Source: an uncultured Mycoplasmatota bacterium
Lineage (GTDB): Bacteria > Bacillota_I > Bacilli_A > RF39 > UBA660
Reading direction: 5' to 3'
Length of the DNA stretch: 39,539 nucleotides
NCBI GenBank assembly: GCA_946497955.1
Contig: CAMMMH010000014.1
Location: forward strand, 1 to 39,539
The notes below the pieces were generated by a model, which was given only the letters and a program-made list of their open reading frames with translations, did not search any database and was not told where the DNA came from. Positions 2,674 to 30,516 of this stretch are shown here, in pieces. The translations under genes were made by a program, and so were the position numbers. Each line of letters begins with the position of its first letter. Position 1 is the stretch's first letter.

Positions 2674-3820
2674 CTTTAACCTCCTCTTTGTTACATTGTA
2701 CCACACTTTTAGTATCTTGACTAGGTTCGTTTTTAGCATCAGATTTTAAATCGTCCATATAGTAAACTGTACTAATGTTTTCTGTTTTAGTTAGTCTTTC
2801 ATATATTAGAGGTTTCTTACGGCCAAAAAATTTTAAGAATATTTCAAAATAAGTATAGATTAAAAAGAGAATATAAAATAACATTACAAGACCATTAATA
2901 TGATTATTATAATTTATTACTATAGGAGGGCCAAAGACAATTAAGAAGTAAAGAATAATTTGTCTTAGAAAGATAGATAAATGTTTATATTTATTTTTAC
3001 TATCTAACTTTATTTTTACAAGATATTTACCAAAGGTATAGCAAGTTATGGTAGGTAATATTATATAGTAGATTACGACGGAGATAACTAAAGGTATTAT
3101 AAAGTCATGAAAATTAGTAATGACTAGGACTATAAACATTAAGGTAGCAAAGACAAAGAGGTCTATTAGAAAAGCAAGAGAGCGTCTATAGATAGAGACA
3201 ACTTTACCTCTTTTATAAGATATTTTATCTATTTCATCTCTATTAGGTAAAAATATTGTAATAATTGGGGTAATTAAGTAACCTATAAAACCTCCTAAGG
3301 TGTTAACCATTAAATCATCAACATCAAAAAGACGGTATGCTTTAGGATAAAGACCATATAATCCCGTTAATTGGGTTAGTTCGAAAAAGAGGCTTAAAAG
3401 AAAAGTATAAATTATAGTAGTATACCACTTTTTCTTGAAATAATATCTTAAATAAATACCAAATGGTATGGTAATAGCAATATTAAAGAGGGTTGTATAG
3501 ACAATTGGTGATTTAAGAAAAGCAAGAACACTACTAGCAGATTTAAAAGCATCTATAAAGTCTCCTAGGAAAGCAAAAGGAATAAGTTGAGGGACTTTTG
3601 TAGGCATGGCTAAGACTTGTTCTTTACTAGGTAAGGGCAATATTACTAAAAAATAGGCTGTTAATAAGTAAAGGATAAAGGTATAGACAATACTACTTCT
3701 TATTAAAGGTACTGAACCATATTTATGATACTCTATTAAAAGATAAGGTAATGTTATTAAGAAAGCTAGTAAGGGAAAGATAAGAAAAGCAGTTTTTATT
3801 GATTCCAAATATACTTCCAT
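2657..3820 (-). CDS. VanZ-like / RDD-domain fusion membrane protein
   Basis: The 387-residue protein has two membrane domains. Residues about 1-190 look like VanZ: four to five helices ending in the conserved stretch SLFFELTQLTG, then FDVDDLMVNTLGGFIGY. Residues about 205-330 are an RDD domain, beginning with YRRSLAFLIDLFVF where R, D and D are the family hallmarks. A hydrophilic tail follows. VanZ gives low-level teicoplanin resistance in enterococci; most relatives have no known function, and RDD domains occur in possible transporters. The start is an ATG at 3820 with AGGAG, eight bases after gpsA. The fold call is strong; the function is open. Confidence 0.8.
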   Translation of the reverse strand: MEVYLESIKTAFLIFPLLAFLITLPYLLIEYHKYGSVPLIRSSIVYTFILYLLTAYFLVILPLPSKEQVLAMPTKVPQLIPFAFLGDFIDAFKSASSVLAFLKSPIVYTTLFNIAITIPFGIYLRYYFKKKWYTTIIYTFLLSLFFELTQLTGLYGLYPKAYRLFDVDDLMVNTLGGFIGYLITPIITIFLPNRDEIDKISYKRGKVVSIYRRSLAFLIDLFVFATLMFIVLVITNFHDFIIPLVISVVIYYIILPTITCYTFGKYLVKIKLDSKNKYKHLSIFLRQIILYFLIVFGPPIVINYNNHINGLVMLFYILFLIYTYFEIFLKFFGRKKPLIYERLTKTENISTVYYMDDLKSDAKNEPSQDTKSVVQCNKEEVKDESRD

Positions 3821-3828
3821 AAATACTC

Positions 3829-4791
3829 CTAGAATAGTTCTAATACTTCATCTAGAGAAACTTTACCGTTAAAGTAGTCTGTTAGTTTTTCTAAAAACTC
3901 TGATGTTTGATTATTCTTTTCTAATAGTTTTGTTAAAGAGTTAATAGCAATACTTCCTTCGACAGTATAATGTTTTTTATAAACATCTGCTTCTTCTTTA
4001 TTAGTATATAAAAGGACTCCATAACTATAATTACGACTAGTTTTACTATTACAAGTTAATAAAATATTCCCTAAAGCTCCATAACATGTTGCTGTTTTAC
4101 TATCTCCTCCTAGTTTAGTTACTAAGTCTTTAGCAAAATTATAAACTTTAGTTAAATAATAAGCATTAGTAGAGTCTCCTCTATATTTACTACTGATACT
4201 TCCCATAAGTATTGCTAAAACATTTTTAATGACACCATATAACTCTAGTCCAATATAATCATCTATTACTTCTATTTCGACATTAGTATCTTTAAATAAC
4301 TCTAACATTAACTCTTTAGTTTTTTCATCTTTTGTGCCAAGTGTTAAGCCGGCTTTACTATTAACGATAAGTTCTTTGGCAAATGTAGGTCCTGCTAGAT
4401 AAGAAACATGACCCTTTAAATTTAATTCATCATAGATTTCTGTCATTAAGAAGTCAGTATTCTTTTCAAGACCTTTAGATACTAATATTACTCTACTATT
4501 ATCTGTTAAATAATCTTTTATTCTAGTTAATACTTCTCTTACATGATTACATGGAATAGCCACTATGATTAAATCAGAGTTATTTAAGGCTTTTTCTAAA
4601 TCCATTGTCACATCTAAATCACTTGCAAGTTCTATTCCTGTTAGAACCCTATCATAAGTATTATTATTAGTTATTTCTAGATATTCTTCTTCAAAAGCAG
4701 TCCAGAAAATAATATCGGCATTACTTCTTTCATGTAATAAATTACCAAGAGCAAGTCCAAAAGCTCCTGTTCCTAAAATTGTTACTTGCAT
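3829..4791 (-). CDS. gpsA: NAD(P)-dependent glycerol-3-phosphate dehydrogenase, divergent
   Basis: A 320-residue protein, close to the family length of about 330. It opens with the Rossmann motif GTGAFG (residues 7-12) and carries VSKGLE, LAGPTFAKEL, the catalytic-lysine block VIKNVLAI, the SRN motif and TVEG. GpsA reduces dihydroxyacetone phosphate to sn-glycerol 3-phosphate, the head-group precursor of phospholipids. Two normally conserved blocks are altered: the GG of the GVELGGALKN-type block is LYG, and GLGDL is replaced by ALGNI. It may therefore be a fast-evolving ortholog. The ATG follows AAGGTGAT, and a promoter lies just upstream; it heads a five-gene operon. Confidence 0.85.
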   Translation of the reverse strand: MQVTILGTGAFGLALGNLLHERSNADIIFWTAFEEEYLEITNNNTYDRVLTGIELASDLDVTMDLEKALNNSDLIIVAIPCNHVREVLTRIKDYLTDNSRVILVSKGLEKNTDFLMTEIYDELNLKGHVSYLAGPTFAKELIVNSKAGLTLGTKDEKTKELMLELFKDTNVEIEVIDDYIGLELYGVIKNVLAILMGSISSKYRGDSTNAYYLTKVYNFAKDLVTKLGGDSKTATCYGALGNILLTCNSKTSRNYSYGVLLYTNKEEADVYKKHYTVEGSIAINSLTKLLEKNNQTSEFLEKLTDYFNGKVSLDEVLELF

Positions 4792-14437: not shown

Positions 14438-15628
14438 CTAACTAATTAATTTAAGGGTATCTAGAGCGATCATAAGCTCCTCATCTGTTGGAACTACATA
14501 AACAGGGATAGTAGAGTCATCACTACTAATCTTTTTAAATTCTCCCATTACTTTATTAGCTTCACTATCTAGTTTTACACCAAGGCATGCTAAGTTCTCA
14601 CAAACTTTCTTTCTAAATGGTTCACTATTTTCACCAAGTCCTGCAGTAAAGCAGATAACATCGGCTCCTCCTAGTAGGACATAATACTCTGCGATATAGT
14701 TTGTAACTGTTCTTGTGTATTTAAGGAAAGCACGTCTTGCCTTAGCTTTCTTTTCTTCATCATCACTATCCATAGCACTTACTATATCTCTCATATCACT
14801 ACTTATTTCACTAAGTCCAAGTAATCCTGATTTTTTATTTAAATCATCTATTACTTCCTTAGCATTTAATCCTTCTTGTTCCATAACATAGGTAATAATA
14901 GAAGGGTCAACATCACCACTTCTTGTTCCCATCATTATACCTGCTAAAGGAGTGAAGCCCATTGAAGTATCAACACATTTACCATCTTTAATAGCAGTAA
15001 TAGAACCGCCATTACCAACATGACAACTAATTATTCTTAAATCATCTCTACCAAGTTTTTCACTGATGGTTTTAGCGATATATCTATGACTTGTTCCATG
15101 AAAACCATATTTTCTAACACCATGAGCTTTATACCAGAAATAAGGTACTGGGTAAAGGTATGCTTCCTCATCCATAGTTTGATGAAAAGCAGTATCAAAT
15201 ACTCCTACCATAGGAACATCTGGTAATACTTCCTTAAAAGCTTGTATCCCTAAGACATTAGCAGGATTATGTAAAGGAGCGAAGTCTTTAAAAGCGATTA
15301 GGTCATTAACTACCTCATCTGTTATTAAGCATGACTCTTTATACTTATCTTTACCATGAACTAAACGATGTCCTACTCCATCTATTTCATCTAATGATTT
15401 AATAATATTAAGACTAACTAGTTTATCTAATAAAATCTTAACAGCCTCTGTATGAGTTGCAAGTTCTGCTTCTGTTTTTATTTTCTCACCATTATATTTA
15501 ATAGTATAACTACTTCCATCTATACCAATACGTTCAAATAGTCCTGAAGCGATTACTTTTTTATCGTCCATATCGAAAAGACTAAACTTCAAAGAACTAC
15601 TTCCTGCATTAATAGATATTATTTTCAT
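14438..15628 (-). CDS. ackA: acetate kinase (copy 1)
   Basis: 396 residues, the normal length. Diagnostic motifs include INAGSSSLKF at the start, VGHRLVHG, DTAFHQTM, YGFHGTSHRY with the catalytic-site His, the nucleotide loop GNGGSI, MGTRSGD with its active-site Arg and the C-terminal VPTDEELMIA. AckA makes ATP from acetyl phosphate in fermentation. The ATG follows AGAAGGAA. A clear promoter sits just upstream within the 88-bp repeat. A second, divergent copy lies 4.4 kb away, across an accessory island; no phosphotransacetylase gene is in the window. Confidence 0.96.
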   Translation of the reverse strand: MKIISINAGSSSLKFSLFDMDDKKVIASGLFERIGIDGSSYTIKYNGEKIKTEAELATHTEAVKILLDKLVSLNIIKSLDEIDGVGHRLVHGKDKYKESCLITDEVVNDLIAFKDFAPLHNPANVLGIQAFKEVLPDVPMVGVFDTAFHQTMDEEAYLYPVPYFWYKAHGVRKYGFHGTSHRYIAKTISEKLGRDDLRIISCHVGNGGSITAIKDGKCVDTSMGFTPLAGIMMGTRSGDVDPSIITYVMEQEGLNAKEVIDDLNKKSGLLGLSEISSDMRDIVSAMDSDDEEKKAKARRAFLKYTRTVTNYIAEYYVLLGGADVICFTAGLGENSEPFRKKVCENLACLGVKLDSEANKVMGEFKKISSDDSTIPVYVVPTDEELMIALDTLKLIS

Positions 15629-15638
15629 ATATATTCCT

Positions 15639-15726
15639 TCTTTCTTTAAATCTACTAGTATTATACTATAGATTAAGGATTTTTCAAAGTATTAGGCAAG
15701 AAAGTTCATAATAAGTGCAGTTATTA
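15639..15726. repeat. 88-bp direct repeat, copy A
   Basis: This segment matches 17390-17477 at 84 of 88 positions (offset 1751). It holds the ackA promoter and, at 15692-15726, a duplicate of the last codons of the RhuM-Fic gene, detached from that gene. The two copies bound the two-gene cassette. Confidence 0.95.
15660..15687 (-). promoter_or_regulatory. sigma-A promoter of ackA copy 1
   Basis: Minus strand: -35 TTGAAA (15682-15687), 16-base spacer, -10 TATAAT (15660-15665). The -10 is at the centre of the dyad TAGTAT-T-ATACTA (15656-15668). Confidence 0.75.
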
Positions 15727-15800
15727 TGGCTTTATCAATAATAATCTTGTAAATAATAATATCTATATATTTTAAACACCTTTCCCTTACAATGAAAAAA

Positions 15801-15809
15801 TGCTATAAT
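15801..15809 (+). promoter_or_regulatory. extended -10 promoter of the 121-residue gene
   Basis: TGCTATAAT is a perfect extended -10 element 24 bases before the ATG, with no good -35 in front. Confidence 0.6.
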
Positions 15810-15832
15810 TCCTTTATAAGGAGTGATTTTAG

Positions 15833-16198
15833 ATGGAAAGTAATAATGTTTTTAAAGTTGGCAAACTACAAAATTTAGATAGTAAAATAGAAGTAAGTGA
15901 GTTAGAAAATGGTTGTTTAGATTTTTTTATCAGTTCTAATTCTAAACAAGATTATTCATTAGAATTTACTAGTGCAATAACTAAAAAAGATTTTTTAGAA
16001 TTTGAACTTGGAAAAGAAATGAATTTACAAAAATTTATTGATACCAATGATATTGTTGTTGGAGAAAATGGGTCATTTAATTTAAATTGCAGTTTTGACT
16101 TAAGGATTAATCACTATATTCCTAATTCTTTTTTGTTAATTCTATCGGTTAGAACAGAAGAAACTTATTTATATATTGAGAATGAATTCAAACTATAA
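15833..16198 (+). CDS. unknown protein in the repeat-bounded cassette
   Basis: 121 residues, no recognised family, no membrane segment. It appears beta-rich (KIEVSELENGCLDFFISSNS, YSLEFTSAITKKDFLEFELG) with an acidic bias and ends in ETYLYIENEFKL, like a small cytosolic domain. The ATG has AAGGAG nine bases upstream and its own extended -10 promoter. It is the only plus-strand gene for several kilobases and converges on the metalloprotease-like gene with a 6-base overlap of 3' ends. Placement in a mobile-looking cassette suggests transfer, but the function is unknown. Confidence 0.7.
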   Translation: MESNNVFKVGKLQNLDSKIEVSELENGCLDFFISSNSKQDYSLEFTSAITKKDFLEFELGKEMNLQKFIDTNDIVVGENGSFNLNCSFDLRINHYIPNSFLLILSVRTEETYLYIENEFKL

Positions 16199-17344
16199 AT
16201 GAGTTTTTTTATTTTGGTCATTTGATAAATTCTTCTCATATTCTTTACGTTCCATAAGATAAAAGGTAGATTCATCAATTCTATTTTTTTTCTGCCTTTT
16301 AGATACTATTTCATAAACAATAGAAGGATATTTACTTCCAAATTCTTTCATAAACTCAATTGTTGCATAATTATCTGCATCTTTTTCTAGTAAAAAACTA
16401 TCATGGTAGGTTATATAAAAACTATAATTTTTATTAATAATATCTTTTTTCATTAAAATTAGTTTCTTAGCTTCATCTGTGAAGTCATCAAATTCTACTT
16501 CTTGCTTAAAATGTCCTATCTCATGAAATAAGTCAAATATTTTGTTTAGTAAATCTTTTTCTGTATTTAATCCATATTCTAAATTATTTAATTCAATACA
16601 GGGAATTTGTCCATTATGTATCTTGAAAAAACTTCCTAATGATACATACCCACTTTTAACATCACTGTTATTAGAGCTAAACATAATAGCAGAATTACCT
16701 TTAATTTCAATCATTTTTTTTGAAAGCATTTCTAAAATATATAATTGTTTATTTCTGGGACTAGATAAGTCTTTAATTGGGTATTTAGAAAAATAATCTA
16801 CTATGTCATACATTAAATATTTTTGACCTTTATATTCTTTATAGATAGCCCTGTTATATGCTTCAAATAAAAATTCTTCTTCTAAAAATAATCTATCATT
16901 ATCTTCTAATTTTTCTTCAGTATTAATTTTTTTAATAAGATAATTATATTTACCAATTACGGCATTATAAATCTGAACTAGTGATTTTCCATTAAAAAAA
17001 TTTATTTCATCCTCATTTTTTGTTTGGGGCAGTTTTTTCCACAAACTAGAATATAAGTAAATACAATACTTATTATTAAAATATTCTCTGACATCTTTTT
17101 CTAAAACAGATTTTAAATATGTATGATATTTATTTAAAAAAGTAATTTCAAAATCCTCTAACTGTTTTTTAGAAGATAAATAAATTAGTCCTTCTTCGAT
17201 TTTTGACTTTTCTTCTTTCTTTTGTTCCATAATTTGAGAAAAATAATTTATATCTGTTACTTTACTGATATCTTTATAAAAATCTAAACATTCAAGATAT
17301 GAAACTTTATTATTAATTTCTTTTAGCAAATTATTTGTTTCCAT
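16193..17344 (-). CDS. putative zinc metalloprotease with HEIGH motif
   Basis: 383 residues. The first 200 are helical and charged without recognised domains. A zincin motif HEIGH (274-278) follows the amphipathic helix LLNKIFDLF, and about 40 residues later LLEKDADNYA (E320, D324) gives candidate third ligands, the order seen in ImmA/IrrE-like and related peptidases (HEIGH, then an E/D-rich helix with A). I cannot assign a family. There is no signal peptide or membrane anchor, so a cytosolic protease is likely. The copy-B repeat supplies a promoter identical in its key boxes to that of ackA. The ATG at 17344 has GGAGATAAA before it. Confidence 0.65.
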   Translation of the reverse strand: METNNLLKEINNKVSYLECLDFYKDISKVTDINYFSQIMEQKKEEKSKIEEGLIYLSSKKQLEDFEITFLNKYHTYLKSVLEKDVREYFNNKYCIYLYSSLWKKLPQTKNEDEINFFNGKSLVQIYNAVIGKYNYLIKKINTEEKLEDNDRLFLEEEFLFEAYNRAIYKEYKGQKYLMYDIVDYFSKYPIKDLSSPRNKQLYILEMLSKKMIEIKGNSAIMFSSNNSDVKSGYVSLGSFFKIHNGQIPCIELNNLEYGLNTEKDLLNKIFDLFHEIGHFKQEVEFDDFTDEAKKLILMKKDIINKNYSFYITYHDSFLLEKDADNYATIEFMKEFGSKYPSIVYEIVSKRQKKNRIDESTFYLMERKEYEKNLSNDQNKKTHL

Positions 17345-17389
17345 TTTATCTCCTGTTACTTTGTTAAGAATATCTAATTCTCTATTAAG

Positions 17390-17477
17390 TCTTTCTTTAA
17401 ATCTACTAGTATTATACTATAGATTATAAATTTTTCAAAGTATTAGGCAAGAAAGTTCATAATAAGTGCCGTTATTA
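17390..17477. repeat. 88-bp direct repeat, copy B
   Basis: Partner of 15639-15726. Here bases 17443-17477 are the genuine 3' end of the RhuM-Fic gene, and the rest is its downstream region with a promoter reading into the metalloprotease-like gene. Confidence 0.95.
17411..17438 (-). promoter_or_regulatory. promoter of the metalloprotease-like gene (copy-B repeat)
   Basis: Minus strand: -35 TTGAAA (17433-17438), 16-base spacer, -10 TATAAT (17411-17416). It is the duplicate of the ackA promoter, with three spacer changes. Confidence 0.7.
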
Positions 17478-18372
17478 AGTCCTTTTCTTTAGGATTTGAT
17501 TCTGCTATTAAAAGAGTTAAGGCAGTTAAAGTGTTATTATCAATTACAAGGTTATTATCTTTATAGAGCATATTATAGTAGTTTAGAAAGTAGATAAACA
17601 TAGTTGCTGCTATACGTTTGTTACCGTCTATAAAGGCATGATTTTTAACTGTCAGATATAAGAAGTTAGCAGCTTTTTCTTCTGTGCTTTTATATAATTC
17701 TTCTCCATCAAAAGTTTGATAAATAGCATCTATAATAGCTTTAAAACCATAATCTCGTTCTAAAGCAAAGATATCACTGCTTTCATTAAATTTAAGGGTA
17801 TTTATTACATTCATGCATTCTTCATAATCTATCTTTTTTAAGCTCTTATTAGTTCCTTTTACTTTTAGAGTTTTATGGTCATAGTCATCTAATAAATCTA
17901 AAGCCTTAGTATATGATGTTATTACTTTTAATACGCCTTTAGCATCCTTATCTTCTAGTCTATCATCTAATCTATTTGCAATATCTATTAGTTCAATAGT
18001 TTTTTCTAGAGCTTTAAGTCTTTTCTCATTAATGGCATAACCTTTAATTAGATAATCTTTTAATATTTTATTAGCCCATTTTCTAAAGGCAACACCATTT
18101 TTTGACTTAACACGATATCCAACAGAAATAATTACATCAAGATTATAGAAAGTAACAGGTTTATCTGAATTAGGAATGTGCAATTTTTGCACATTTGTCT
18201 TCTTGTCTAGTTCTCCTTCTTTAAAAATATTATTTATATGTCTTGTTATAACAGTTCTATCTTTATCAAATAGTTCTGCCATTTGCATTTGATTTAACCA
18301 AACAGTCTCATCTTTCATATTTACTTCTAATTTAATATTTTGATTATCAAAGATAACAATTTCACTTTTCAT
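17443..18372 (-). CDS. RhuM-family protein with C-terminal Fic/Doc domain
   Basis: 309 residues. The N-terminal part (about 5-110) is a RhuM/virulence-type domain with VWLNQMQMAELFDKDRTVITRH, FYNLDVIISVGYRVKSKNGV and FRKWANKILKDYLIKGYAIN. After a helical linker, residues about 180-300 form a Fic/Doc domain with HAFIDGNKR at 245-253, the full catalytic loop. Fic proteins transfer AMP or a phosphate to protein targets; Doc inactivates EF-Tu. RhuM domains resemble phage antirepressors and often bind DNA. It is the third gene of an operon after two ORF6N genes, with GAGGAG inside the upstream gene. Its last codons are duplicated at 15692-15726. Confidence 0.88.
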   Translation of the reverse strand: MKSEIVIFDNQNIKLEVNMKDETVWLNQMQMAELFDKDRTVITRHINNIFKEGELDKKTNVQKLHIPNSDKPVTFYNLDVIISVGYRVKSKNGVAFRKWANKILKDYLIKGYAINEKRLKALEKTIELIDIANRLDDRLEDKDAKGVLKVITSYTKALDLLDDYDHKTLKVKGTNKSLKKIDYEECMNVINTLKFNESSDIFALERDYGFKAIIDAIYQTFDGEELYKSTEEKAANFLYLTVKNHAFIDGNKRIAATMFIYFLNYYNMLYKDNNLVIDNNTLTALTLLIAESNPKEKDLITALIMNFLA

Positions 18373-18375
18373 TTC

Positions 18376-18894
18376 TTAATCCTCCTCTATTTTCTTTATT
18401 TTATTTGTTAAATTTTTCTTTTCTATTAGTTTTTTAAGCGAATCTTCTAAGGCTTTAATTCTCTTATCATGTTCTAATACTAAGTTATTTATGTATTTTT
18501 GTTCAAGTAGATTACTGGATATACTTTTTCTCATTGATACAAAAGCATCCATTATCTTTATGCTAATCTCTTCTGCAACAGGTGTTCTAAGTATTGCTGC
18601 TAACATTGCTACGCCTTGTTCTGTAAAGACATACGGTAGAGTTCTTGACATATTATTTTCTTTTGCGGTTTCAGTTTGAAACCGCAAATAATCATATTCG
18701 TCTTTTGTTAATTGAAACATAAATCTTTCCGGAAATCTATTAATATGTCTTTTCACTGCTAAATTAATAGTCTTAGTTCCATTTTTACATTTGTAAAGCC
18801 TTGCCAAGTCACTATCTAGCATTACTTGCTTACCTCTTATTTCATAAATCATATCCTCTATTTTAATATCTTCTTTTGTAACAACTTCATTCAT
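18376..18894 (-). CDS. ORF6N-domain protein (short paralog)
   Basis: 172 residues. The N-terminal two thirds are an ORF6N domain: MIYEIRGKQVMLDSDLARLY, INRFPERFMFQLTKDEY and LPYVFTEQGVAMLAAILRT are its core blocks. A coiled-coil-like helix follows (SNLLEQKYINNLVLEHDKRI) and the protein ends NKIKKIEED. ORF6N is a phage-associated antirepressor or DNA-binding domain. It is the neighbour and paralog of the longer ORF6N gene: the first 95 bases differ at one site, and the tail corresponds to the long protein's end, so the middle domain appears deleted. The ribosome-binding site AAGGAG lies inside the upstream gene's end. Confidence 0.88.
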   Translation of the reverse strand: MNEVVTKEDIKIEDMIYEIRGKQVMLDSDLARLYKCKNGTKTINLAVKRHINRFPERFMFQLTKDEYDYLRFQTETAKENNMSRTLPYVFTEQGVAMLAAILRTPVAEEISIKIMDAFVSMRKSISSNLLEQKYINNLVLEHDKRIKALEDSLKKLIEKKNLTNKIKKIEED

Positions 18895-19794
18895 CTATTA
18901 GTTCTCCTTATCTATTTTCTTTATTTTATTTATTAAAGTATTTTTTACATCTTCATCGCCTATTAAGGTAATTGAAAATGTTTTATAACCTATTCTATTT
19001 ATGCTGGCTCCACAGTGATAGATAATCTCATCATCTAAGATAAAGTACCTATCATGAAAGGTATTATTATAGTAAACTTGTAAATTATTGTACTGTTTAT
19101 TATATTTTGCAATATCTTGTTCTGTAAGAAGATTATTAGATTTAGTTATAATTGTTACTTTTATTTTCAATCTTTTTATAATATCTAGTATTGTATTATC
19201 TGCATATGCATCTATTATTACAAGATTATTATTTGCACTATTAAATATCTCTTGTATTTTATAATAAGCATCATAAATCTGTCCATTAAAATATATCTCA
19301 TTAACTTTCTTCTTTTCTTCTATTTTTTGAAATGAGTCTTGTAACAATTTAATTTTATATTCATGTTCTAATAGCATATTATTTATGTAGTTTTGTTCAA
19401 GTAAATTATTAGAAATATATTTTCTCATCGCTACAAAGGCTCTCATAATAGCAACACTCATCTCTGAAGCAACATCAGTTCTAAGAACGGTAGCTAACAT
19501 TGCTACACCTTGTTCTGTAAAAACATAAGGCAGTTTACGAATTCCTCCATAGTTATTCCAACTTGAAGTCCCAAATTGGGACTTCAAGTTTAAAAATTCT
19601 TCTGCTTCTAACTGAAAATAAAAATCATTAGGGAATCTATTAATATTTCTTTTTACTGCTTGATTAATTGTTTTTGTCCCATTAGCACATTCATATAATC
19701 TTGCCAAGTCACTATCTAGCATTACTTGCTTACCTCTTATTTCATAAATCATATTCTCTATTTTAATATCTTCTTTTGTAACAACTTCATTCAT
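18800..19794. repeat. 95-bp near-identical 5' ends of the two ORF6N genes
   Basis: 18800-18894 and 19700-19794 differ at one position in 95 (offset 900), while the sequence immediately downstream in the genes diverges strongly. This suggests recent gene conversion or recombination at the 5' ends. Confidence 0.85.
18898..19794 (-). CDS. ORF6N-domain protein with PLD-like C-terminal domain
   Basis: 298 residues. Residues 1-125 are an ORF6N domain like that of the next gene, then a helical linker with NLLEQNYINNMLLEHEYKIK. Residues about 165-290 form a second domain: NNLVIIDAYADNTILDIIKR, a strand VTIITKSN, and FHDRYFILDDEIIYHCGAS, where H247, R249 and D254 resemble a phospholipase D HxK(x4)D half-motif with Arg for Lys. 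Such single-motif domains are found in phage-defence and restriction proteins; catalysis is uncertain. GGAGG lies nine bases before the ATG. It heads the operon, with a promoter and palindromes upstream. Confidence 0.85.
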   Translation of the reverse strand: MNEVVTKEDIKIENMIYEIRGKQVMLDSDLARLYECANGTKTINQAVKRNINRFPNDFYFQLEAEEFLNLKSQFGTSSWNNYGGIRKLPYVFTEQGVAMLATVLRTDVASEMSVAIMRAFVAMRKYISNNLLEQNYINNMLLEHEYKIKLLQDSFQKIEEKKKVNEIYFNGQIYDAYYKIQEIFNSANNNLVIIDAYADNTILDIIKRLKIKVTIITKSNNLLTEQDIAKYNKQYNNLQVYYNNTFHDRYFILDDEIIYHCGASINRIGYKTFSITLIGDEDVKNTLINKIKKIDKEN

Positions 19795-28688: not shown

Positions 28689-29603
28689 CTATAAGTTTAT
28701 CCACAAGTGTTGTGGATAAAGTCCGGCACTAGTTAATTCTCTTAAAGCTTTTTCCACAGTTTCTTTATCTTCTTTATAAGTCATACCATACCAAGTAGAA
28801 GTTGTATTTATAACATCTATAGTCTTAATGTTCTTCCTAAGACAAGTATCTAAGACATCAGGTATCTGAAATTCATAGTCATCAAGATTTTTCTGATGAA
28901 GTGATAAGAATAAATATAGTTCGTCACTTAAGATGTCAAATAAGTCAGGAGAAAATAGTAAAAGATTCATACATACTAGGGTATCTTCATCTATTTCTTT
29001 ACCATTACTACTATGTAAAGGAGCGGCAATTATTTTATTTCTTTTAGGTGCTACTTTAGACTCTGTTATTCTTAATAATTTATTATCTGCAACTTCCATA
29101 ATACCTCTTTTAGATGTTCCATTAGGAGTTAAGGTGTTACCTACTTTATATCCTACAACACCATAATGATTATAGATGATATCATCTAAGTATTCACTGG
29201 CTTTTAGAAAAGCATCTTTACCATAGTAATCATCAGCATTTATGACTGCGAATGGTTCTTTAATTTTATCTTTAGCACAAAGGATAGCATAGGCAGTACC
29301 TAAAGGTTTAGTTCTTTTCTTTAACAAAGCTTTAAACCTAGTTGGAATATAGTCATCATTTTGAAAAGCATATTCTACTTTAATATAAGGTTCTACTCTT
29401 TTGCCAATGGTTTCTTTAAATTTTTCATAAAAATCTTCTTTAACTATAAAAACAACTTTAGTAAAGCCAGCTTCTATAGCATCATAGATTGAATAGTCTA
29501 TGATGAACTCTCCATTAGGTCCTACTTTTTCTATTTGTTTTAGGCCTCCAAATCTACTACCCATACCGGCAGCCATAATTAATAATGTTTTATCTTTTTT
29601 CAT
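28689..29603 (-). CDS. sugar-phosphate nucleotidyltransferase-like protein (copy 2)
   Basis: 304 residues from ATG 29603, which has TATGGAGG upstream; the longer frame to 29639 is not supported. It opens with the nucleotide-binding signature LIMAAGMGSRFGGLKQIEKV, continues with GTAYAILCAKDKI and VINADDYYG, where the aspartates bind metal and NTP, and ends without a beta-helix acyltransferase domain. It is a stand-alone NTP_transferase, probably activating a sugar phosphate for surface polymers. It overlaps the upstream paralog by 14 bases. The exact substrate is unknown. Two inverted DnaA-box sequences lie in its last codons. Confidence 0.8.
   Translation of the reverse strand: MKKDKTLLIMAAGMGSRFGGLKQIEKVGPNGEFIIDYSIYDAIEAGFTKVVFIVKEDFYEKFKETIGKRVEPYIKVEYAFQNDDYIPTRFKALLKKRTKPLGTAYAILCAKDKIKEPFAVINADDYYGKDAFLKASEYLDDIIYNHYGVVGYKVGNTLTPNGTSKRGIMEVADNKLLRITESKVAPKRNKIIAAPLHSSNGKEIDEDTLVCMNLLLFSPDLFDILSDELYLFLSLHQKNLDDYEFQIPDVLDTCLRKNIKTIDVINTTSTWYGMTYKEDKETVEKALRELTSAGLYPQHLWINL
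28697..28719. repeat. inverted pair of DnaA-box sequences
   Basis: TTATCCACAA (28697-28706) and TTGTGGATAA (28710-28719) form perfect 10-base arms around GTG. Each arm contains the DnaA consensus TTATCCACA. The site is within the end of the nucleotidyltransferase gene, 24 bases ahead of ligA. It may bind DnaA, act as an RNA hairpin before ligA, or be coincidental. Confidence 0.5.
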
Positions 29604-30516
29604 CTTTACCTCCATATAAATTATTACTATATATTTCATCTTTAATCATATTATTTATAGCATTTACTACTAACTCTTTATCTTCTTTATATGTTACTCC
29701 ATACCAGTTAGCATGAGTTTCTATAACATCTACTATAACTCTATTTTCTTTTAATAGTTCATTTAAAACTATTGGTATTAAAAACTCACAACTATCTAGA
29801 TTATCTTTATTATCTTCTAAAAAGATAGGTAGTTTTTCTTCAAGAATGTTAAAAAGACTAGGCGTAAAGAGTAACATGTTCATAGAACAGATAGTATCTT
29901 TTTCTACTTCAAAAGGATTACTACCATCTAGGGGTGATACTTTTACTAAATTGCCATCTAACTCCGTACTACTTTCTATTATTGTGATTAGTTCATTATT
30001 ATCATTTACTTTACAGACACCACGTTTAGCGGCTCCATTTTCCGTTAGAGTATTACCAAGACGATAAGCGATTAAGCCATAATGATTATCTTTAATATTA
30101 GATAGATAATCTGATGCTTTCATATAGGCATCTCTTCCATAAAAGTCATCTGAATTAATGATAGCGAATGGTTCATTAATTTTATTTTTAGCACAAAGTA
30201 TGGCATGAGCAGTACCAAGAGGTTTCTTTCTTGTCTTTAGTAGTTCTTGATACTCTTTAGGTATATTATCATTATTCTGAAAAACATACTCTACTTTTAT
30301 ATGTGGTTCAACTCTTTTGCCAATAGTCTCTTTAAATATATCATAATTTTCTTCTTTTATGATAAAAACTACCTTATTAAAGCCTGCCTTAATGGCATCA
30401 TAGATAGAATAATCTATAATAAACTCGCCATTAGGTCCCACTGGTTCTATTTGTTTTAGTCCTCCAAATCTACTACCCATACCGGCAGCCATGATTAGTA
30501 ATGTTTTATCTTTCAT
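29590..30516 (-). CDS. sugar-phosphate nucleotidyltransferase-like protein (copy 1)
   Basis: 308 residues and clearly a tandem paralog of the next gene: LIMAAGMGSRFGGLKQIEPV, GTAHAILCAKNKI, IINSDDFYG, SMNMLLFTP and WYGVTYKED occur in both. The asparagine-serine version of the metal loop (NSDD versus NADD) is the main core difference. It starts at ATG 30516 with AGGAGG and heads the operon that runs through ligA. Duplicates may act on different substrates or form a hetero-oligomer; no sequence clue decides. Confidence 0.8.
   Translation of the reverse strand: MKDKTLLIMAAGMGSRFGGLKQIEPVGPNGEFIIDYSIYDAIKAGFNKVVFIIKEENYDIFKETIGKRVEPHIKVEYVFQNNDNIPKEYQELLKTRKKPLGTAHAILCAKNKINEPFAIINSDDFYGRDAYMKASDYLSNIKDNHYGLIAYRLGNTLTENGAAKRGVCKVNDNNELITIIESSTELDGNLVKVSPLDGSNPFEVEKDTICSMNMLLFTPSLFNILEEKLPIFLEDNKDNLDSCEFLIPIVLNELLKENRVIVDVIETHANWYGVTYKEDKELVVNAINNMIKDEIYSNNLYGGKDEKR

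Follow-up and report, generated by a model that had tools for sequence, protein, structure and literature searches.

Results

Two 88-bp direct repeats are located at positions 15639-15726 and 17390-17477 of the window, the whole 39,539-nucleotide stretch of DNA analysed here. Pairwise comparison showed that the two copies are identical at 84/88 positions without gaps, which confirmed the agreement reported in a preliminary description of this DNA. The repeats start 1751 bp apart, and the 1663 bp between them (15727-17389) form an insert that is missing from relatives with a single copy. Downstream of the left repeat lies ackA1 (14438-15628, minus strand), whose product we take to be an acetate kinase, following the name given by the earlier reader. 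On the other side is the RhuM-Fic gene (17443-18372, minus strand), and its final 35 bp (17443-17477) are inside the right repeat. The left copy occupies the normal place of ackA1 and contains a promoter-like site, while the right copy comprises the RhuM-Fic 3' end together with a promoter-like site reading into the first gene of the insert. When 200,000 random pairs of 88-base segments were drawn from the window at distances of 500-6000 bases, the mean identity was 26.6 and the maximum 48 of 88. The 88-bp direct repeats are real and well above chance.

Repeats were also scanned in 439,539 bases of the same genome (the window and 20 further 20-kb stretches, out of 1.72 Mb), and at thresholds of at least 40 bp and 78% identity nine pairs were found, the window pair among them. 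The other eight comprised a 71-bp pair in ORF6N genes, a 40-bp pair in locus L117, five pairs in L118 and one in L123. At L117 (G000:C9), the 40-bp direct repeat (95%; 16709-16747 and 17684-17723) surrounds a WG-repeat gene, and a phage-type integrase gene (18032-19789) adjoins this repeat-flanked gene. L118 (G000:C10) carries two similar 165-aa genes (632-1129 and 1444-1941) with short repeats around them, and their products are presumably similar to the ToxN/AbiQ toxins found in type III toxin-antitoxin systems. In the window itself, two adjacent nucleotidyltransferase-like genes at 28689-30516 appeared similar by eye.

Two convergent frames were found between the repeats. The larger one (16193-17344, minus strand) encodes a 383-aa M78-like metallopeptidase with HExxH followed by ExDAD, which we take to be the active-site motif and its downstream acidic ligand; H274, E275, H278, E320 and D324 were invariant in 5/5 rows of the M78-like alignment. 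Against Peptidase M78 (PF06114) the window protein scored 16.4 bits, below the curated Pfam cut-off of 22, and four of the five M78-like members matched this family at E values up to 0.1 (best 0.0045, 17.2 bits). The second frame, orf121 (15833-16198, plus strand), encodes a 121-aa protein with two weak relatives in the family, neither of them near an M78-like gene. Neither insert gene contained an integrase or transposase domain in the Pfam search, so the earlier statement that the cassette has two genes and no integrase held. Terminal inverted repeats were not found in the insert by a scan of limited sensitivity, which at its threshold also missed the control locus L101.

Each repeat copy contains the promoter-like site TTGAAA-16-TATAAT, recognised by its match to the consensus. 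The site at 15660-15687 (minus strand) reads into ackA1, and that at 17411-17438 (minus strand) lies upstream of the M78-like gene. These two were the top scorers of 24 sites in 2.3 kb, while shuffled sequences gave 17.7. Judged by sequence, the right copy would thus place an ackA-type promoter-like site before the M78-like gene, and ackA1 would retain its own.

The repeat DNA was matched in 29/35 genomes of the genus and had no match in the remaining six. A single match was present in 25 genomes, over the full 88 bp in 16, over 86 bp in G007 and over 51-78 bp in eight. Two copies were present in the window's genome (G000), G032 and G019, and G004 had a complete copy plus a split one. For 12 of the 25 single-match genomes, the site of the copy was RhuM-Fic, or a fragment of this gene in G011 and G014, with ackA1 adjoining it, and G008 and G012 showed uninterrupted read-through from ackA1 to RhuM-Fic. 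The M78-like gene was present in 4/35 genomes, namely G000, G032, G019 and G004. Since relatives without the genes have a single copy, the genes entered this site and left the ends of both neighbouring genes complete. The preliminary description had regarded the left copy as a detached duplicate of the RhuM-Fic end; it is indeed detached from RhuM-Fic, but it stands at the normal place of ackA1, and the right copy at that of RhuM-Fic.

The position of the insert was identical in all four carriers, the left part in G004 being on another contig. There, the left copy is split by an insertion sequence (end of L028, start of L062), with at least 27 bp of target on both sides. Three carriers were assembled under different sample names, which makes a single assembly error unlikely. 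The same genes without the repeats, which the earlier reader would have counted against its reading, were not seen in the genus, where 4/4 carriers have the repeats; a distant relative at L074 lacks them. The ackA2-ackA1 interval as a whole is variable, with zero to three ORF6N genes (18376-19794 in the window), RhuM-Fic present or absent and the M78 unit in four genomes, and G030 has a different insert in this interval.

Next, the repeat copies were compared with 13 single-copy alleles. The carrier that has diverged most, G004, showed a difference between its copies at 1/88 positions (the left copy read as two pieces), as expected of a duplicated target. The copies differed at 4/88 positions in G000, 3/88 in G032 and 5/88 in G019, and in these three genomes the left and right copies were closest to different single-copy alleles. 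The left copies of G032 and G019 had no differences from the G006 allele, and the right copy of G019 had none from the G012 and G028 alleles. Such mismatch could mean that one side was replaced later by recombination, or that there were two source alleles from the start.

The insert was much less diverged than its flanks, suggesting lateral spread after insertion. Between G000 and G032, 4/1663 positions differed in the insert, compared with 53/1201 in the left flank and 26/895 in the right flank; between G000 and G019 the values were 14/1663, 52/1201 and 113/895. For the same two pairs, synonymous differences were found in 2 and 4 of 383 codons of the M78-like gene and in 39 and 38 of 396 codons of ackA1. 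Divergence was likewise low in part of the ackA1 start beside the left copy, above all in G032, which indicated that the tract does not end exactly at the repeat on the left side. In none of the best trees for ackA1, the DHH gene and ackA2 (23, 21 and 15 rows) did the carriers form a single clade; three of the four grouped in the ackA2 tree, and the well-supported branches alone are compatible with one origin. These results suggested that the unit probably moved between lineages by homologous recombination after insertion, the alternative being loss.

A pattern scan of genome contigs gave five M78-like loci, three of which are the genus carriers. At L073, an M78-like relative with 53% of residues identical lies between 109-bp copies at 96% identity. 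The downstream copy forms the beginning of an intact gene, presumably for an inositol-monophosphatase-like protein, of which the upstream copy matches no more than the first 25 codons. The M78-like gene, present at both duplications, is separated from the L073 repeats by 8 bases on each side, so at that locus the gene by itself makes up the inserted unit. The length of the duplication thus differs between the two insertions (88 bp in the window, 109 bp at L073), and the likeness of the two repeats is at chance level, as 63-266 of 300 shuffles reached the local alignment score. The 98 relatives searched yielded no empty site close to that at L073.

No flanking repeats were found at L074. L075 (G059) carries an M78-like relative with 31% identity, and copies of about 35-43 bp of the preceding gene's 3' end recur behind the M78-like gene and again behind the genes that follow, which we assume to be XRE/BroN-like. 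These copies, at 4583-4625, 5903 and 7192, are weak and old. As a side observation, the recurring 3' tails resemble an array of inserted units.

A long abutting duplication was therefore present at 2/4 independent M78-like loci, and since the window was picked for its repeat, the unbiased proportion is 1/3. The gene itself is rare, being found in 2/386 sampled genomes of the family and 2/385 of the order, with the window's genome counted in each. RhuM-Fic served as a control: among the 28 family loci that were fetched, some with short flanks, four were flanked by direct repeats of 30 bp or more at 78% identity or above, and at one of these the repeat was 60 bp or longer. In this last case (L159), the repeat was 68 bp at 82% and did not abut the gene, and there was a further 77-bp pair at 76.6%. 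By a similar measure, repeats of at least 30 bp were present at 3/4 M78-like loci (window, L073 and L075) and of at least 60 bp at 2/4. This excess is suggestive only, given that its repeat was the reason for choosing the window and that only one of the other three loci has a long repeat.

Long repeats were also seen elsewhere in the genus. At L101 (G008:C50), exact 122-bp direct repeats (1202-1323 and 3373-3494) flank an IS1634-family element, which showed that long duplications do arise in this genus. Six of the eight IS1634-family loci had no end repeats, some of them being cut by contig ends. Separately, at L063 (G018:C61) the 3'-terminal part of a cupin-like gene, in 176-bp copies (87.5%; 1719-1894 and 3041-3216), is found on both sides of a broken RhuM-Fic gene; this locus is perhaps another long-target-duplication insertion with other cargo.

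Discussion

The arrangement at this locus is best explained by insertion of a gene unit with a long target duplication, to which we assign a probability of about 0.7. The two target strands would have been broken at points about 90-110 bp from each other, and filling of the gaps would have followed once the gene unit was joined in. The M78-like gene would be driven by the copied promoter, with ackA1 still served by its own, and homologous recombination within the repeats or close to them would account for the later spread. The repeats may also permit clean loss of the unit. Its excision between them is possible, and the 1751 bp that the preliminary description predicted for it is arithmetically correct. 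Two unrelated targets, each with its own duplication, argue against a fixed attachment core, and the differing duplications fit the copying of whichever target was hit. The points against this explanation are the 3-5 mismatches in 88 positions between the copies in three genomes, whose two sides match different alleles, the lack of repeats at L074, the weak ones at L075, the missing empty site for L073 and the grouping of three of the four carriers in the ackA2 tree.

Another explanation, which we consider rather unlikely, is a Campbell-type addition, in which circular or end-joined DNA with the genes and one relative's 88-bp segment recombined by homologous crossover at the single copy and so produced two. 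The left and right copies matching different extant alleles in three genomes would agree with this, and so would the far lower divergence of the insert than of either flank, which is what travel without the flanks would produce. However, the first circle must already have contained the target segment, a second, unrelated segment would be required for the L073 relative, and the copies in G004 differ at only one position. The preliminary description had favoured entry by restoring the target end at att-like sites. The single-copy relatives do support entry with the neighbours' ends complete, whereas the att-like, integrase-type part of the claim is not supported, since no integrase domain is present and the core at L073 is different. 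If an integrase had acted in trans on an att-like 88-bp core, the restored gene 3' end would be accounted for, as this is a feature of many attachment sites, and a phage-type integrase is encoded elsewhere in the genome. Nevertheless, the insert has no integrase domain, and the 109-bp repeat at the one other insertion resembles the 88-bp repeat no better than shuffles do, which makes such integration very improbable.

It is equally hard to credit that an IS1634-family transposase catalysed the insertion. Such enzymes can yield long target duplications, and the family scored over its cut-off in 8/35 genomes of the genus, including the carrier G032, with the exact 122-bp repeats on one G008 copy and repeats of at least 55 bp on one G009 copy at a contig end. 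Against this, G000 had no match, end repeats were present at only 2/8 loci examined, the end core TTTGACAGTT was absent from the three inserts searched, and the insert showed no terminal inverted repeat in the scan that missed its control L101. It is also conceivable, although doubtful, that the M78-like gene is a minimal mobile gene, whose product or DNA ends promote insertion with duplication of about 100 bp without transposase or integrase, preferring sites just after a promoter.

To our knowledge, the entry of transposase-less genes with copying of about 100 bp of target has remained unexplained since the Helicobacter case. Insertion with long target duplication was reportedly described by Nobusato et al. 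in 2000 and Furuta et al. in 2010. According to the excerpted text of PMC3874152, the insertion of some restriction-modification (RM) systems is accompanied by target duplications that are long, of the order of 100 bp, and variable. The Helicobacter case is described in the excerpt of PMC1643837, and this excerpt and that of PMC3031569 mention it with a citation of Nobusato et al. 2000. The present locus is alike in having a gene unit between direct repeats of the order of 100 bp, a single copy where the gene is absent, and no mobile-element genes. It differs in that the cargo is an M78-like metallopeptidase gene with a small gene, not restriction-modification, and in that the host is an uncultured Bacilli genus. 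We read this locus as a further case of this already described kind of insertion. The literature retrieved on long target duplication in general carried titles mainly on RM systems, Helicobacter and insertion sequences, with one on transposed plant genes.

Two other known systems share some features with the locus. IS1549 and IS1634 have direct repeats of 8-514 bp, for which the excerpt of PMC2266710 states that no mechanistic model was proposed at that time. Their long, variable direct repeats are alike, but they are transposons with a transposase and inverted ends, and the insert shows neither. Minimal mobile elements of Neisseria are by definition incorporated solely by homologous recombination (excerpt of PMC3898611), and the locus resembles them in that two conserved genes, ackA2 and ackA1, enclose whole-gene cassettes that differ between genomes. 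The definition in that excerpt does not include target duplication. Homologous recombination fits the spread of the insert but does not by itself explain the duplication.

A duplicated promoter-like site would allow an incoming gene to be expressed without harm to its neighbour. In the same genus, the IS1634-type element with its exact 122-bp duplication is available for comparison. The M78-like genes represent one rare gene family with two such insertions at unrelated targets, and close relatives of one of the two still have the single-copy site.
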